Origin: Gemmatimonadaceae bacterium
GTDB taxonomy: Bacteria; Gemmatimonadota; Gemmatimonadetes; Gemmatimonadales; Gemmatimonadaceae
Reading direction: 5' to 3'
Length of the DNA stretch: 64,000 nt
Assembly (NCBI GenBank): GCA_020846935.1
Contig: JADLCY010000008.1
Location: 62,001-126,000, forward strand
How positions within the stretch are numbered: position 1 is the stretch's first letter; each line of letters begins with the position of its first letter. The notes beneath the pieces were generated by a model. The model was not told where the DNA came from, ran no database searches, and was given only the letters and a program-made list of their open reading frames with translations. A program made the translations under genes and the position numbers. Below, in pieces: positions 10,747 to 38,417 of this stretch.

Positions 10747-12771
10747 TTACGGGTTGTTGCTCACTGCCTTCGTCCGCCTGAGCACGTGCTCCGAGAACCA
10801 CTTGTCCTGTTCCACGTCCAGGTGGAGCCGGTGGACCGGCTCGGTGATGCCGTGTCCTTCGCGCGGATAGCGGAGGAACTCGACCGTCTTTCCGAGCTTC
10901 TTGAGCAGCCGATAGTACTCGTCGGCCTGCGGGATGGGCACGCGAGTGTCGTTCTCACCGTGCGTGATCAACAGCGGTGTGGTGACCTTCGTGGCATGCT
11001 CGATGGGCGACCACCGCTCGTACGTGGCCTTGGACGCACTCGGCAGGCCGCCGAAGCCGAACTCCAGCAGATTCGGGATATCGGTCTGACCAAAGAACGA
11101 GTACCAGTCGGAGATGCCGGCGTGGCCGATCGCGGCCTTGAAGCGCGAGGTCTGCGTGACCGTCCAGAAGGTCATGAACCCGCCGTAGCTGCCACCCATC
11201 ACAGCGAGCTTTGACGAGTCCGCGACGCCCATCGCGATCACGTGGTCGACGCCCTTCATCAGATCGACGTAGTCCTTGCCGCCCCAGTCGTTCTGATTGG
11301 CCGCACCAAACGCCAGCGTGCGCCCGGAGCTGCCGCGTGGATTGCCCTGCAGCACGGCATACCCGCGCGCCGCCCAGATCTGGGCGCCGGCGTTGAAGTT
11401 GGCACTGTAGCGTCCAAACGGCCCGCCGTGGACCTGAAGGATCATCGGAACCTTCGCACCCGGCTGGTAACCGAGCGGGTAGGTGAGAATGCCTTCGATG
11501 GTCCAGTTGTCGGCCCCCTTCCATGTGATGGGCTCCGATCGGGCGATATTGAACTCATCCAGGCGATCTTGCTCGGCGAGAATACGCACCGGCTGTGTGC
11601 CGTCACGACCGGTGAGGTAGACGAGACCTGGCTCGGTGAGTGACCCACCACTCACCAGCCACTTCGTGCCGTCGGACGACGCCGAGAAGTCGCCGAAGAC
11701 AAAGTCCTTGCCGAGGGGCACTTCCACCGGCGTGCCGCCAGAGGCCGCGATCCGGTAGAGCCGCGTCGTCAGCCCTTCGGCCGACGCAAAGTAGATGTGC
11801 GAGCCGTCGGCCGACCACTCGAGGTTGGAGATCGAGTAGTCGTGCGTCGACGTCAGGTTCCGCGCGGTGCCGCCCTGCGCGGGGATGACCTTCAGATCGA
11901 TCTGGTCGGCCGAGTGATTGCGGAGGTCGCTCGAGGCGTACGCGATGAACTGACCGTTCGGGGAGAACACCGGGCCGTTGTCGGGGCCGAGGTTCGCGCC
12001 GGTGATGGCGCGTGGTTCGCCGCCAGCCGCGGGGACAATGTAGATGTCGCTGTTGTTGCTCCAGTTCGCATCGCGCGCCGTGGTGCCGGTGCGGTTCGAG
12101 CTGAACGCGATCCACTGCGCATCGGGCGAGAACACCGGCCCCTGGTTGTCGCTGGTACCGCTCGTGATCTGTGTCCGGGCCTTCGTCGCCAGGTCGAACG
12201 TCCACACATGCGTATACGTGAGCTTCTTCTCGGCGTAGTAGCCATCGTCCTTCTTCTTGACGCGGTCGTCCCATTCCTTCTTGTCGGGTCGCTCGGTTTC
12301 CTGTGTGTAGACCAGGTGCTGGCCGTCCAGGGAGAAGCTGCCACCCGTCGGCAGGCTGTCGCCTTCAACCAGCTTCACTGCTTCGCCGCCGCGCGGGGAA
12401 ATGACGTACCAGGCGTTGCGCCCATCGCGATTGGACGTAAAAGCCACACGTCCATCCGGCAGGAACCGCGCGTTCGATTCACCGCGCTGGGAGTTCGTCA
12501 GCTGGAGCGACGTGCCCGCAGCCACGTCGTACAACCAGATGTGGGATGTGGCGGCCCACTCCCGGGGCTCGCGATCGGTGCGTGTGAAGAGTACGGTCCT
12601 GGCATCCGGCGAGAGCCGGTAGCCGCCGTACGTGGGCCGCGCGAGCACGTCGCGGAGCGTGATGTTTTTCTTCTGTTGGGCCGCCATCGGCGCGGCCAGC
12701 AGGAGTACCGTGGCGGCCGCCAGCGTGCGCAACAGGTACGCCCGGGTGCAGCGAGCGGAGGAGGTGTGCAT
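10747..12771 (-). CDS. S9 family prolyl oligopeptidase, exported
   Basis: A 674-residue serine peptidase that cleaves peptides through the prolyl-oligopeptidase fold. A signal peptide MHTSSARCTRAYLLRTLAAA leads into LLLAAPMAAQQ. Residues about 35-410 are WD40-like propeller repeats (GPVFSPDAQWIAFSSNR, GPVFSPNGQFIAYASS, NLEWSADGSHIYFAS). The C-terminal alpha/beta-hydrolase domain has the nucleophile in VMGGSYGGFMTF, Asp in HGENDTRVPIPQ and His in REGHGITEP. The frame is open to 13101, but the extra residues are not protein-like and the signal peptide places the start at 12771. Length and motif order are normal for acylaminoacyl-peptidase-type S9C enzymes. Confidence 0.94.
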   Translation of the reverse strand: MHTSSARCTRAYLLRTLAAATVLLLAAPMAAQQKKNITLRDVLARPTYGGYRLSPDARTVLFTRTDREPREWAATSHIWLYDVAAGTSLQLTNSQRGESNARFLPDGRVAFTSNRDGRNAWYVISPRGGEAVKLVEGDSLPTGGSFSLDGQHLVYTQETERPDKKEWDDRVKKKDDGYYAEKKLTYTHVWTFDLATKARTQITSGTSDNQGPVFSPDAQWIAFSSNRTGTTARDANWSNNSDIYIVPAAGGEPRAITGANLGPDNGPVFSPNGQFIAYASSDLRNHSADQIDLKVIPAQGGTARNLTSTHDYSISNLEWSADGSHIYFASAEGLTTRLYRIAASGGTPVEVPLGKDFVFGDFSASSDGTKWLVSGGSLTEPGLVYLTGRDGTQPVRILAEQDRLDEFNIARSEPITWKGADNWTIEGILTYPLGYQPGAKVPMILQVHGGPFGRYSANFNAGAQIWAARGYAVLQGNPRGSSGRTLAFGAANQNDWGGKDYVDLMKGVDHVIAMGVADSSKLAVMGGSYGGFMTFWTVTQTSRFKAAIGHAGISDWYSFFGQTDIPNLLEFGFGGLPSASKATYERWSPIEHATKVTTPLLITHGENDTRVPIPQADEYYRLLKKLGKTVEFLRYPREGHGITEPVHRLHLDVEQDKWFSEHVLRRTKAVSNNP

Positions 12772-33067: not shown

Positions 33068-33787
33068 GTGAAGACCGGGCTCCTCCGCCGCCTGTGGCGC
33101 ATTGCGCTCATTGCCGCCGCGGTCCTCTTGATCGGGCCAGTGGTGCTCGCGCTTCCGCTCAACTTTGTGCAGCCGTTCACTACGATGGTGATGCTGCGTC
33201 GAGCGGTACAGCGCCTCATGGCGGGCAAGCGTCCGGTGTATCCTCGGCGCGATGTGGTGGCGCACGACGCGATCTCGGACCATCTGCGGCGAGCGGTCCT
33301 GGCCAGCGAGGACGACCGATTCTACCTGCATTACGGTTTTGACCTGACGGAGATCGAGAAGGCGCTGGAGAAGGCCAGGCGTGGCCGGCGACTCCGCGGC
33401 GCCTCGACCATCACGCAGCAGGTGGCGAAGAACCTGTTTCTGTGGGAGGGGCGGTCGTTTGTGCGGAAGGGATACGAGGCGTACCTGACCCTGGTGCTGG
33501 AGACGTGCCTGTCGAAGGACCGCATCCTCGACATCTATCTCAACCTGGCGGAGTGGGGCGACGGGGTGTTTGGCGCGGAGATGGCTGCGCGCACGCATTT
33601 CAGGAAGTCGGCGAAGGCGTTGACGCGCGAGGAGTCGGCGCGCCTGGCCGCGGTGCTGCCGTCGCCCTTGCGCTGGTCGCCGCGGGGTTCGCTGGCCACG
33701 CGGCGGGCATCGACGATTCTTGCGCGGATGCAGTACGCCGCACCGCGCGAAGCGCCGCCTGCTCCAACGCGCAGGAGCAAACGCTGA
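33068..33787 (+). CDS. mtgA: Monofunctional peptidoglycan transglycosylase MtgA
   Basis: A 239-residue GT51 transglycosylase that polymerises lipid II glycan strands. A single N-terminal membrane segment (LIAAAVLLIGPVVLALPLNF) anchors the catalytic domain. Motif 1 is LASEDDRFYLHYGFDLTEIE with the catalytic Glu, motif 2 is [20 protein letters not shown], and motif 4 is [20 protein letters not shown]. The GTG at 33068 starts right before VKTGLLRRLWR, giving the usual 240-residue length. The gene is divergent from the NamZ-like gene. A broken second copy lies at 36122-36655. Confidence 0.95.
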   Translation: MKTGLLRRLWRIALIAAAVLLIGPVVLALPLNFVQPFTTMVMLRRAVQRLMAGKRPVYPRRDVVAHDAISDHLRRAVLASEDDRFYLHYGFDLTEIEKALEKARRGRRLRGASTITQQVAKNLFLWEGRSFVRKGYEAYLTLVLETCLSKDRILDIYLNLAEWGDGVFGAEMAARTHFRKSAKALTREESARLAAVLPSPLRWSPRGSLATRRASTILARMQYAAPREAPPAPTRRSKR

Positions 33788-33837
33788 GCCAAGAAGCTCG
33801 CCGGCCATTCGACCGTGGGTCGTCTGCTGCTGCGCTC

Positions 33838-33958
33838 GTGGCAACTGCAGCTCCCAGCCAGGGCGAGGATCGTCGGAGCTGGTGAACGAATGATCTACGT
33901 GGTTCAGCGCACGGATGACGACCTCGAGACCTCAGCACCCACCCCAGGAAGGGGCCTC
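33838..33958 (+). pseudogene. C-terminal remnant of a beta-propeller gene
   Basis: About 40 codons downstream of mtgA (QLQLPARARIVGAGERMIYVV, QRTDDDLETSA) match the C-terminus of the intact propeller at 36894-37994 (QLQLPARARIVGFGERRVYVA, QRNDDDLETLS), including at the DNA level. Nothing of the rest of the propeller remains here. It has no start codon of its own and is not expected to be functional. Confidence 0.75.
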
Positions 33959-34010
33959 CGGGAATCCCGGGTCGATTCAGAATGCTCCATTTCGGCGTGC
34001 GCGCTCGAAG

Positions 34011-34463
34011 CTACTTGGCCGGGGAGCGTTGCATTCGCGACAGAATGTCGTCAACGCTGTCCCACATCGCGACCCTGCGTATGCTCGAGAGTCCGATTGC
34101 GCTCATGACAACGCGGCCGTTCACAATCAGGTGCTCGCTGGGGATGTCGCTACTCGGCCAGTCGCGCACTACTCCGGATACGGGAATCCGCTGCCGCTGC
34201 AGGGCCATCTTCGTGTCTTGTTTCGGGGCCTTGTCAAGCATGAGGAACAGCGAGACGCTCCCGTCATTCGCGAGGGCTTCCCAACGTGAGAACATTGTGG
34301 AGCACGAGAAGCACATTTCCGCCTCGTACACCAGAACCATGTTCGCACTGGCCGTGGAGGTGGCGACCGCTGACGCAATCGTTCGGCCGTCGTAGAGTCG
34401 TTGACCCAGCAGCGAGGCCTCATTTCCGTTGCCGCAGCTCACCGCAGCGAGTGCCCCCAACAT
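34011..34463 (-). CDS. Thioredoxin-like CxxC lipoprotein
   Basis: A 150-residue protein with a lipobox-like start MLGALAAVSCGNG (Cys10, though the n-region lacks basic residues) and the motif YEAEMCFSCSTMFSRWEALA with a redox CxxC at Cys51 and Cys54. The following VSLFLMLDKAP, IPVSGVVRDWP and PSEHLIVNGRVVMSAIGL suggest a thioredoxin-like fold with a cis-Pro region near PSEH. CACAAGGGG gives a ribosome binding site. The gene is 36 bases after the propeller gene and in the same frame, so it is the third gene of the peptide-propeller operon. A broken copy lies at 38140-38417. Confidence 0.7.
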   Translation of the reverse strand: MLGALAAVSCGNGNEASLLGQRLYDGRTIASAVATSTASANMVLVYEAEMCFSCSTMFSRWEALANDGSVSLFLMLDKAPKQDTKMALQRQRIPVSGVVRDWPSSDIPSEHLIVNGRVVMSAIGLSSIRRVAMWDSVDDILSRMQRSPAK

Positions 34464-34499
34464 CCCCTTGTGAGCCGTAAACGCACCGAGGGCATCGCG

Positions 34500-35627
34500 T
34501 CAGTCTCGCCAGCACGCAGACGAGTCGATCCGCTTGGCCTGAACGATCGTCGTTGGCGCTCCCGCGGGCTCTACGGCCTGCAGGAGGAGGAACACCGTAT
34601 CTCCCACGACGTCTACCCACGGTTGGGGGTCTGTGATGAGAGTGAGCGACGCATCGCTGCACGCCCGGCGACGCTGGAGGTCAACGAGCGACAGCCACAG
34701 GCGCCCGGTCATTCGATTGGAGGCAAAGGTTTGGTCGACTGACGTCAGCGCCAGGATCGATGGATCCCCCGTGCGAGCGAGAAGGAAGGGATACGAAGGC
34801 TGATACGCGGCTCGCTGCTGAGACGCAGGGTCATCGTCCGTCACACCGTTGACCAGCTCCGGCATCGCCCCACGCCTGGACTTCACCGGTACAGCGATGC
34901 TGTCAAAGGGGCCCGTCAGCGGCCCGAAGTAGAGGAAGTCCGAATTCTGGACCATGACCGCAACGCGCGACGTGTCGAGAGGCACTAGCGCCAGAAATGA
35001 CAGCATGTTGTCGACCGCAAGAGATCGCCCCATCATCGAGGTGAACGGCCCGCCGTGTACCCGCTCGCTGCCGACAACCCTCTCGACGGTGGTCCGGGCG
35101 CCACGGTCGATCAAGCGGAAGAACGCGGCGCTGCCGCCCATCGCCAGGAAACTGGAGCCTGCAGGCCTCGATGCCTCCGACAAGACGGTGCCAGAAGGGA
35201 ATGCCAAGGTCTTGTGTCGCGATCCGTCGCTAACCCCGACCTGTGACTCGCTCACCTTCACGACGAACGGGCCGCGCGACCACTCGTCCGGGCCCGGACC
35301 TCGCCTCCCAATGGCAGCGAGCCGACGGCCATCACGGGCGAAGCGATGGAGAACGCCGTTTCGCCGATCCGCAATGAGGAAAGAGCCATCGGGACCGATG
35401 GCGAACCCAGAGGGCTCGGCAACGAACGCGGACTCCGATTCCTGCAGTACAATGCTGTCGAGCGCCACCAGGCCCGGGCGCGGAGAACGGTCCTCTGCCT
35501 TGCTACCACCACAAGCCGCTGCAAGCAACACGGCTCCGGTCAGAGCTTGCCGAGTCTTCGCGCGGCCCCGGCGCGGCAGGCATCTCGAGACGCAGGTCGC
35601 GAGATGCCTGACAGTTGCTATCCGCAC
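34500..35627 (-). CDS. 6-bladed beta-propeller lipoprotein
   Basis: A 375-residue protein. The lipobox ALTGAVLLAAACGG places the lipidated Cys at about residue 39. Blades include AEPSGFAIGPDGSFLIADRR, GVLHRFARDGRRLAAIGRRG and the G-P-G-P-D-E-W turn typical of NHL-like 6-bladed propellers (PF17170-like). Its GTG start at 35627 overlaps the 3' end of the six-cysteine peptide gene by 10 bases, which implies translational coupling; the frame is open further upstream but without protein character. Propellers of this kind in Bacteroidetes sit beside small cysteine-rich peptides. Start choice is inferred. Confidence 0.78.
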   Translation of the reverse strand: MRIATVRHLATCVSRCLPRRGRAKTRQALTGAVLLAAACGGSKAEDRSPRPGLVALDSIVLQESESAFVAEPSGFAIGPDGSFLIADRRNGVLHRFARDGRRLAAIGRRGPGPDEWSRGPFVVKVSESQVGVSDGSRHKTLAFPSGTVLSEASRPAGSSFLAMGGSAAFFRLIDRGARTTVERVVGSERVHGGPFTSMMGRSLAVDNMLSFLALVPLDTSRVAVMVQNSDFLYFGPLTGPFDSIAVPVKSRRGAMPELVNGVTDDDPASQQRAAYQPSYPFLLARTGDPSILALTSVDQTFASNRMTGRLWLSLVDLQRRRACSDASLTLITDPQPWVDVVGDTVFLLLQAVEPAGAPTTIVQAKRIDSSACWRD

Positions 35628-35791
35628 CAGCCGGTCGGCGTGCAGTTCGACCCCGCGCAGCTGCCGATGCCGGAACAAATGCAGCCATCGTACGTCCACA
35701 GGCAGCCCATCATCCCCTGAGCCGATGCGGTCGAGGGCGCGATCGAAGCGAGCACGAGCAGCGATGCGGTGATCCTGAACATTCTGCGCAT
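35618..35791 (-). CDS. Secreted six-cysteine peptide
   Basis: A 57-residue peptide. A perfect Shine-Dalgarno AAGGAGGT lies 5 bases before the ATG at 35791, and the signal peptide MRRMFRITASLLVLASIAPS ends in STASA before Gln. The predicted mature part is 33 residues, QGMMGCLWTYDGCICSG then IGSCAGSNCTPTGWCG, with six Cys in the pattern C-x6-C-x-C-x5-C-x4-C-x5-C, so up to three disulfides. It overlaps the start of the propeller gene by 10 bases. The layout recalls NVEALA peptides of Bacteroides, although the sequence is not obviously related. A role as a secreted, disulfide-bonded ligand or cargo is inferred. Confidence 0.72.
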   Translation of the reverse strand: MRRMFRITASLLVLASIAPSTASAQGMMGCLWTYDGCICSGIGSCAGSNCTPTGWCG

Positions 35792-36121
35792 GAGGTACCT
35801 CCTTGATGTGAGGCGCGCGCGAGTCTTCATGACATTCCAAGCCAAGTCCCTCCACGGGGTGAGCAGCCAGGAGTTGCACCGACTTCAGGCCGTCTCAGAC
35901 CATCGCGACCGAGGCGATGATGCGCGCCACGACTCATCCCCGATGCTTGGCCTGTTGTCAGGCCGTGCACCAGCGAGTCTGCAGGCGACGCTTTCTGAGG
36001 TCAATCACGATGATGCGACACGAGTGCGTCAACGGCAACCTCAGCCTGTCTCACGCCGCTCGCCACCGTACCCATCGAGCCCGAGGTTCCGGAGGTAGCG
36101 TGCCGGCGGGCACACACCCGC
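35792..36121. other. Intergenic region upstream of the six-cysteine peptide operon
   Basis: About 330 bases between the start of the peptide operon (leftward) and the broken mtgA copy. A leftward TTGACC hexamer, reading on the minus strand near 36000-36005, could be a -35 element, but a matching -10 is not clear. No protein-like frame is visible. Confidence 0.35.
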
Positions 36122-36655
36122 TTCGCGGCGCGCCCGGTGTATCCGCGCCGCGAGTGGTGTCGCACGACGCAATTTGAAACCACCTACGGCGGGCCGTGCT
36201 CGCCAGCGAGGGCGACGCTTTGCCTGCACTTTGGGTTCGATCTCACGGAGATCAAGAGGCGCTGGAGAAGGCGAAGCGCGGGCGGCGGTTGCGCGGTGCG
36301 TCTACCACTGCGCAGCAGGTGGCGAAGAACCTGTTCCTGTGGGAGGGGCGGGTTCGTGCGGAAGGGGTAAGAGGCGCATTTGTCGCTCGTGCTCGAGGCT
36401 TGTCTGTCGAAGGATCGCATCCTCGACATCTGTCTCAACCTGGCGGAGTGGGGTGACGGGGTGTTCGGCGCGGAGGTGGCGGCCCGTACGCATTTCAGGA
36501 ACTCGGCGAAGGCGTTGACGCGCGAGGAGTCGGCGCGTCTTGCGGCGGTCTTGCCGTCGCCGCTGCGCTGGTCGCCGCAGGGTTCCCTGGCCACGCGCCG
36601 GGCGTCAACGATTCTCACTCGCATGCAGTACGCCGCGCCACATGAGGCGAGTTCG
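36122..36655 (+). pseudogene. Frameshifted second copy of mtgA
   Basis: The DNA matches mtgA (33229-33760) closely over most of its length. Pieces in different frames read [33 protein letters not shown] and [20 protein letters not shown], then FGAEVAARTHFRNSAKALTR to MQYAAPHEA. Several one-base losses or gains break the frame, the membrane anchor is missing and a stop (GGGGTAAGAGG) follows the KNLFLWEG motif, so no functional enzyme can be made. The match ends at the fusion to a DsbA-like fragment. Confidence 0.85.
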
Positions 36656-36897
36656 CTGCGCGCTCGGGAGTGCCGGACAGCAAAGTCTCATCTGTGTGCA
36701 TGGGAGGAGCGCATCCATTTCCTCGCATTGAGGTGGGGCGCGACCTGGGAACTCGCCTTGCGGTCACCGCGACACCGACGATGTTCATCAATGGTTGGCG
36801 CGTGAGAGGTTCCGTCGATTCAGGCCAGATCCGGGAGATGTTTGATGACATCCCGGTGGGGCGGACGCCGAAGCGCACGAGTCGGGAGAGACCGTGA
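36649..36897 (+). pseudogene. C-terminal fragment of a DsbA-like thioredoxin-fold protein
   Basis: About 80 codons read EFAARSGVPDSKVSSVC and RDLGTRLAVTATPTMFINGW, then RVRGSVDSGQIREMFDD. The cis-Pro motif TATPTMFINGWRV is characteristic of the DsbA/thioredoxin_4 family, but the N-terminal half with the CxxC site is absent. It is joined abruptly to the broken mtgA copy. Its stop overlaps the GTG start of the intact propeller gene (GTGA), which suggests the two once formed one operon. A GTG at 36670 could allow a short product. Confidence 0.7.
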
Positions 36898-37994
36898 GAT
36901 CGACCGTGATACCACACCTGCTGTGCGTTTGCTTCTCGTCGCTTCTTTGTGCACAGGCGCAACCCGTGGCAACGCTGCGACCGGCGAGCGGTCACCTCGC
37001 GTACGAGTTCACCGACGTACGTGGTGTGCGCGAACTGCCCGACGGTCGAATCATTGTCGTTGACCGCGGGGTCCGAGCCGTGCTTTGGGTGGATCCATCA
37101 TCAGGCCGCACGGGCCCCATTGGCCGCCAGGGGGAGGGACCGGGTGAGTATCGCTACCCCGCGTTTGTGGTGTCCCTCGGCCTGGACTCGTCGCTGGTTG
37201 TGGACACGCAGCTGAGACGCTGGATCCTCCTGGCGGGTGACCGGGTCGTCCGCACGATGGGGCCCGATAACGATCTGGTGCGCCTGCTCGGTGTCGACAT
37301 CGTCGGGGCCGATCGCCTCGGTCGCGTCGCGTCGCTGTCGGGGGAGCCGCCGATGTCCTACGTGATGAGACAGCCCACGAGCGCGCAAACGCGCTTCGTC
37401 GTCACCGCGCGAGCCGGACACCTAAGGCTCGATACCATCGGCACGATCCGTGTGCGTCGGGGAAACACGATCGTTCGACGCGGCACGACGGCGTACTTCC
37501 TGCGCAACCCGCTGGCGATCGATGAGCAGAGCGTGCTGATGCGTGACGGCTGGCTGGCGGTGGCGAGAACATCGCCCTACCGTGTCGACTGGGTTTCGCC
37601 CGCGGGCGTCGTCGTCGCGGGAGCACATCAGGAAGTCATGCCGCGGGTCACCGAGGCCTACAAGCAGAGTGCGATTGCCCGCGAGTGGCTCGTGCCGGGC
37701 TATACCGGGCCCGTCTGGGTACCGACGGACTTCCCCGAGTGGCCGGCGGAAATGCCGCCATTCCTCGGAAGCGCCCTGATGGCAAGTCCTGAGGGACAGC
37801 TCCTTGTTGAGCGTTCTGCGCTTGCATCGTCTCGCGGAACACTGGTGGATGTGTTTGATCGATCCGGCTCGCGTGTGCGGCAGCTGCAGCTCCCCGCCAG
37901 GGCGAGGATCGTCGGATTCGGCGAACGAAGGGTCTACGTGGCTCAGCGCAACGATGACGACCTCGAGACTCTGAGCATCCACCCCTGGCCATGA
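36894..37994 (+). CDS. 6-bladed beta-propeller protein, exported
   Basis: A 366-residue protein with signal peptide MRSTVIPHLLCVCFSSLLCA ending near QAQP. Blades include FTDVRGVRELPDGRIIVVDR, AVLWVDPSSGRTGPIGRQGE with the G-E-G-P-G-E-Y turn, and LGLDSSLVVDTQLRRWILLA. The C-terminus reads VFDRSGSRVRQLQLPARAR. This is the same NHL-like 6-bladed family as the propeller at 34500-35627. It starts at a GTG inside the TGA of the DsbA-like fragment. A C-terminal remnant of the same gene lies after mtgA (33838-33958), showing duplication. Confidence 0.8.
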   Translation: MRSTVIPHLLCVCFSSLLCAQAQPVATLRPASGHLAYEFTDVRGVRELPDGRIIVVDRGVRAVLWVDPSSGRTGPIGRQGEGPGEYRYPAFVVSLGLDSSLVVDTQLRRWILLAGDRVVRTMGPDNDLVRLLGVDIVGADRLGRVASLSGEPPMSYVMRQPTSAQTRFVVTARAGHLRLDTIGTIRVRRGNTIVRRGTTAYFLRNPLAIDEQSVLMRDGWLAVARTSPYRVDWVSPAGVVVAGAHQEVMPRVTEAYKQSAIAREWLVPGYTGPVWVPTDFPEWPAEMPPFLGSALMASPEGQLLVERSALASSRGTLVDVFDRSGSRVRQLQLPARARIVGFGERRVYVAQRNDDDLETLSIHPWP

Positions 37995-38139
37995 CGCGCC
38001 GAACGATCCCTACCGCCATTGCCAGCGAGTGAGTCGCGCCGATTCGTGCGGAGACGGCGGGCGCCCCTGCTCATGATGGCCATCGCACGAAGCGGCAGCG
38101 ACCATCGCGCAAGGAACAAGGAGGGCGATGCCACTTTGC

Positions 38140-38417
38140 AGTGCGTCAAGCGGCTCGCCAGCGCGGCCCGACGCATATCTGGGAGCCCGAGCGCGCTGAT
38201 GACAACGCGCCCATTCAAGAGCACGTGCTCGCTGGGAACGGCGGACGTTGGCCAGTTGCGCATCACACCGGAAACTGGAATCATCTGGCGCATCAGGGCC
38301 ATCCGCGTGTCCTCTTTCAGCATGAGGATCACCGACGCCCTGCTCGTGTTCGCCAGGGCTTCCCAATGTGAGAGCATGGGGGAACGCGAGAAGCAAGGCT
38401 CCGCCTCGTACAGTCAA
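38140..38417 (-). pseudogene. Broken copy of the CxxC thioredoxin-like gene
   Basis: The DNA matches the gene at 34011-34463. The minus-strand reading gives LYEAEPCFSRSPMLSHWEAL then ASVILMLKEDTRMALMRQMI and PSEHVLLNGRVVISALGL. The second Cys of the redox motif is now Arg (CFSR for CFSC), the N-terminus is replaced by a frame with an in-frame TGA just before the conserved block, and the C-terminus diverges. A remnant open frame starts at an internal ATG near 38377. It lies opposite and downstream of the intact propeller gene. Confidence 0.8.

Follow-up and report, generated by a model that had tools for sequence, protein, structure and literature searches.

A recurring three-gene locus in Gemmatimonadota: a small cysteine-rich peptide with a Sec signal beside a beta-propeller lipoprotein and a thioredoxin-fold lipoprotein

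In Bacteroidota the NVEALA peptides (PF14055) adjoin six-bladed beta-propellers. A propeller, in this case one of seven blades, is also found in the methylamine dehydrogenase cluster (MauA, MauB and MauD). In the pediocin operon the thioredoxin-like protein PedC raises the potency of the disulfide peptide pediocin (PMC4919988). Here we describe a locus in a stretch of 64,000 nucleotides from a Gemmatimonadaceae bacterium (contig JADLCY010000008.1, positions 62,001 to 126,000; hereafter the window) that encodes a small peptide with a Sec signal (P), a propeller lipoprotein (B) and a thioredoxin-fold lipoprotein (T). An earlier note on this DNA, made from its letters, had described a 57-residue six-cysteine peptide with a signal, a propeller lipoprotein and a CxxC lipoprotein in one block and had proposed that they act together. 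All three genes exist as described, and joint action is supported by a three-gene association far above background, which is found again at more than 40 sites throughout the Gemmatimonadota. The three proteins may well be made together as a module of the cell envelope, with T acting on the peptide's disulfides and B binding the peptide; we give this reading an even chance.

A profile of B recovered some 25 fuller relatives within the family of the window. A scan of the small open reading frames around them, based on Shine-Dalgarno sequence, signal and cysteines, found peptides just upstream of several and CxxC lipoproteins next to these, with the motif CFSC, CLSC, CMSC or CFGC. An early profile of T led to further loci in the same family, again with a propeller and a peptide. 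The profile used for the test comprised 14 T members and was run on 395 Gemmatimonadota genomes, and 40 loci outside the profile were examined. In these blind loci a propeller was adjacent to T in 37 cases, and a strict filter (at least three cysteines) found a signal-bearing peptide on the same strand in 24, against none of the 40 at the same distance on the opposite strand. Relaxed inspection added 11 more peptides, bringing the loci with a peptide to about 35 of 40. Fifty propellers without T, mostly from the window's own family, gave no strict peptide (0/50; Fisher test, 1.4e-11). The earlier note had tied its proposal to peptides beside propellers in related genomes, and it is there that the profiles found them. 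Moreover, a reverse search with the profile of the main peptide class gave five new loci, all five directly beside a propeller and one of them with T.

Within the phylum sample the loci span families f1, f2, f3, f5, f6 and f7, and the gene orders P-B-T, P-T-B, T-P-B and B-T-P all occur among them. Three modules are present in the host genome, two of them on contig C2 and the third in the window, along with a fourth T in decay. Genome G411 has lost its peptide together with the 5' part of T. One B-T-P module is the only one at which ATP-binding cassette-type ATPase and permease-like genes were seen, directly downstream (L190:3822-5515; G346:C4). Low-scoring, TlpA-like matches to T (L195-L199) were set aside, as they had neither a propeller nor a peptide. 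A plasmid search with T and a phage search with B gave no matches, and neither did Rfam.

It is very improbable that the trio of the window is an accident of local duplication in a phylum with numerous propellers, and for the module class such a chance neighbourhood is already refuted, since the three-gene adjacency is found in about 40 genomes against a background of one peptide per 400 kb. The background was taken from 400 kb of unselected Gemmatimonadaceae DNA (three genomes with B relatives), in which one open reading frame passed the filter for at least four cysteines, Shine-Dalgarno sequence and signal. In favour of chance are the duplicates in the window that have decayed (T, mtgA and a propeller tail) and the nearest relative of B (42% identical), which lies alone in an integron cassette of genome G043. 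This lone propeller was at first taken as evidence against the trio, a view overturned by the later profile searches.

The one candidate from the background sample is an eight-cysteine secreted peptide in a region without a propeller (L137:13347-13589). The cassette of G043 belongs to a Gemmatimonadaceae chromosomal integron array with about ten attC-like sites (L025; G043:C3:1-9000); an integron origin of the window was ruled out, as no attC-like site lies within it. The features of the window are collected in Table 1. The window holds a decayed tandem duplication, which takes in the mtgA transglycosylase gene (33229-33754 and 36130-36649, 83%) and a propeller tail with convergent T (33840-34330 and 37879-38412, 66%), and one copy of each duplicated part is broken.

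Table 1. Features of the three-gene locus and its surroundings (positions in the window)
Feature	Position	Strand	Remarks
T, thioredoxin-fold lipoprotein with CFSC	34011..34463	-	lipobox, motif, predicted fold
B, six-bladed beta-propeller lipoprotein	34500..35627	-	GTG start at 35627 uncertain
Stem-loop directly after the P stop	35577..35610	-	15-nt arms, 93% complementary
P, 57-residue Sec-signal peptide	35618..35791	-	Shine-Dalgarno sequence, signal, six cysteines in mature part; class recurs beside B/T
Shine-Dalgarno sequence AAGGAGGT of P	35797..35804	-	read from the sequence
Propeller C-terminus remnant	33816..33940	+	like the propeller at 36894-37994; convergent with T
Second, more distant propeller	36894..37994	+	convergent with the decayed T copy
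Decayed second T copy	38155..38415	-	frameshifted, 62% identical over 91 residues

The gene for P starts with ATG, with AAGGAGG six bases upstream. The signal ends in Ala-x-Ala (sequence STASAQ), and the cysteines at positions 30, 37, 39, 45, 50 and 56 are spaced C-x6-C-x-C-x5-C-x4-C-x5-C. In the whole window P is the sole candidate that combines at least four cysteines with a Shine-Dalgarno sequence and a signal. As to the homologues expected beside propellers, those of the architecture and of the cysteine core recur, and the exact peptide of the window has no detectable one. A BLAST-level search of the host genome, of 40 related ones (41 in all) and of GTDB contigs found no homologue, the direct matches being signal-peptide look-alikes only. 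The exact cysteine spacing, sought in 395 genomes, gave no comparable peptide gene elsewhere, the matches being artefacts of CTG repeats and one or two unrelated cysteine-rich open reading frames. Judged by its sequence, the P of the window is an orphan with homologues only of its architecture and cysteine core. When compared by eye, its end, SC-AGSN-CTPTGWC, resembles LC-ENA-CTPGWCC of the peptide at locus L268; C-x4-C-TPTGWC is kept, near the C-x3-C-TPGWCC of the latter, and an N-terminal C...C-x-C is extra. The PF14055 profile matched none of 27 module peptides and nothing in the host genome, with Bacteroides ihuae positive as the control, in agreement with the earlier opinion that the peptide is not of the NVEALA family.

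Most of the peptides have in common a C-x2-4-C and, 4-12 residues further on, a C-x-C or CC, and both even cysteine counts and a hydrophobic PII(V/I) tail are common. Among pairs of related peptides the ratio of nonsynonymous to synonymous substitution rates (dN/dS) is mostly 0.14-0.6 with all cysteines kept, and for propellers of the same modules it is 0.16-0.28, which points to related peptides being mostly under purifying selection. Across 51 modules the T distances are correlated with those of B (r 0.93), a value inflated by near-identical genomes and taken without control for the species tree. Modules that share one genome are mostly as divergent as modules of different families. Module genes often have a lower GC content at third codon positions than their neighbours, and transposase-like genes were seen by eye close to some loci.

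These patterns bear on the explanation that P is a secreted signal and B its surface receptor, with T serving folding only and the hypervariability giving specificity, as in pheromone types. It would account for the propeller and T evolving as a unit, for several different modules coexisting in one genome and for all newly found peptides of the main class (class I) adjoining a propeller. Nevertheless inspection of the flanks by eye revealed neither a sensor kinase nor a regulator, and a lipoprotein alone is unable to signal across the membrane; we regard a signal-receptor pair as quite unlikely.

A strong hairpin (the 60 bases after the stop folding with z < -3) follows 9 of 37 peptide genes against 1 of 90 T or B genes (p 5.5e-5). 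In bacteriocin operons a hairpin behind the precursor gene gives more precursor than processing protein, and this precedent together with the enrichment suggests that P is the product, with B and T made in smaller amounts. Other secreted peptides were noted in the course of the searches. A conserved eight-cysteine one with the core GDGPEAYCC lies roughly 2-3 kb from T at L240:2632-2823, L252:2877-3074 and L268:7992-8189. Two related ones with DL[ST]EVCGPGCYV (L149:3195-3380 and 11726-11923, in G115) lie near propellers and not beside T, and an 11-cysteine one adjoins a propeller at L301:1360-1650.

The structure model of B (predicted local distance difference test, pLDDT, 84) predicts a six-bladed NHL-like propeller, and its fold matches NHL domains and two exported Bacteroides propellers, 3s9j and 4raa, with E values down to 1.4e-11. 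The six-bladed fold described earlier is thus sustained by prediction, whereas the PF17170 score is sub-threshold (13.9 bits against a gathering cut-off of 22.9). The tight coupling of the genes also held in part. The gap of 36 bases between B and T and the adjacency stand, but the 10-base overlap of P and B depends on a forced GTG, the only ATG, GTG or TTG within reach of the B lipobox. The hairpin behind P (71-nt stretch, folding -39.6 kcal/mol, z -3.75) falls within the N-terminal stretch of B, the first 18 residues of which have very low confidence in the model. This makes the overlap doubtful, though not the adjacency, and the true start of B may be a later non-standard codon.

T begins 36 bases past the B stop, which gives the window the order P-B-T. 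It has a short n-region, the lipobox LAAVSC, the motif CFSC and a predicted thioredoxin fold (pLDDT 88), nearest to StoA, FetE and ResA-type proteins. In 14 aligned members the lipobox cysteine is nearly invariant and the CxxC invariant. T falls below the cut-offs of the Pfam and NCBIfam redoxin models, and no family of either database covers P or T at cut-off. In the T of L244, L261, L274, L299, L200, L201 and probably L272 the first cysteine of the motif is lost and the second kept, giving TFVC, ALKC, WFRC, WLEC and similar sequences. The rule that loss of CxxC always accompanies loss of the peptide, drawn from L200 and L201, was dropped when counter-examples were found.

The likeness of T to thiol proteins that act reductively, ResA and StoA among them, would also suit a module for a metal or redox cofactor. 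In that case a metal or built-in cofactor would be bound by the cysteine motif of the peptide (C-x2/3-C ... C-x-C or CC), B would serve as a metal carrier or as the large subunit of an enzyme in the envelope, and T would keep the thiols of P reduced. The list of parts fits methylamine dehydrogenase, with a cysteine-rich small protein, a propeller and the thioredoxin-like MauD, and the C-x-C and CC pairs recur in the peptides. However, no tryptophan pair, histidine or methionine ligand is conserved across the peptides; with respect to the pair that forms tryptophylquinone, 27 aligned module peptides hold no conserved tryptophan. Moreover, neither cytochrome genes nor genes for making a cofactor were noticed when the flanks were read by eye, such sequence variability is unusual in an enzyme subunit, and the even cysteine numbers also speak against this explanation, which we consider unlikely.

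We thus return to the reading of an envelope module in which T serves the disulfides of P. P would leave the cytosol via Sec as a small, variable, cysteine-rich and abundant product and would be disulfide-bonded. T, anchored in the envelope, would form, reshuffle or repair these disulfides, as is thought of PedC for pediocin, and B may be a dedicated binding partner of P that acts as carrier, receptor or self-protection. A role of P in competition between cells is a guess prompted by the variability of the peptides and their patchy distribution. Several observations weigh against this reading. Four of the five loci from the reverse peptide search show no T nearby, some of them on cut contigs, and no gene for an exporter, a protease or immunity was seen to be conserved. 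The peptide is still present at at least four loci with a cysteine-deficient T (L244, L272, L274 and L299), so catalysis by T is not the whole story everywhere. In addition, a few dN/dS values among more distant peptide pairs are near 1, and the ratios apply to related peptides, which places the homologue-less P of the window outside the comparison.

No description of such a module was found in the open-access literature searched, and the chance that it forms a separate class is considerable. Somewhat short of an even chance, in our opinion, is the broader possibility of an undescribed phylum-wide class of Sec-exported, hypervariable, disulfide-stapled peptides, each with an envelope disulfide catalyst and a propeller lipoprotein for reception or immunity, which would make it a new weapon or signal system. 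Annotation misses the peptides because they are short, vary in sequence and belong to no family; what is overlooked may be a large pool of small peptides rich in disulfides. Each of them now gains two candidate partners, which is directly testable. If the peptides are antimicrobial or serve signalling, a peptide system would be opened in a phylum that is common in soil, poorly cultured and has few known competition systems. The likeness in layout can also be a handle on the uncharacterised genes of the NVEALA-propeller pairs of Bacteroidota.

Compared with these pairs, the module likewise places a small exported cysteine-containing peptide beside a propeller lipoprotein, and B matches the Bacteroides folds 3s9j and 4raa; the difference is the thioredoxin-fold lipoprotein as a regular third gene, and another phylum. 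With pediocin it shares a small, presumably disulfide-bonded peptide and a dedicated thioredoxin-like thiol protein in one operon. Nevertheless the module peptides carry a Sec signal with an Ala-x-Ala end and not a double-glycine leader, a PedD-like exporter is not a fixed part, and a propeller lipoprotein replaces PedB. The methylamine dehydrogenase cluster also unites a cysteine-rich small subunit, a propeller and a thioredoxin-like maturation protein, whereas the module peptides are far smaller and variable, B has six blades instead of seven, and no cofactor genes were seen in the flanks. The T of the window shares its predicted fold and its CxxC with StoA, ResA and TlpA, but its CFSC-type motif does not have the usual WC and its identity to the fold matches is about 10-20%. 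The module resembles both the NVEALA-propeller pairs and the PedC-type operons, yet fails defining features of both, namely the PF14055 match and the leader type.
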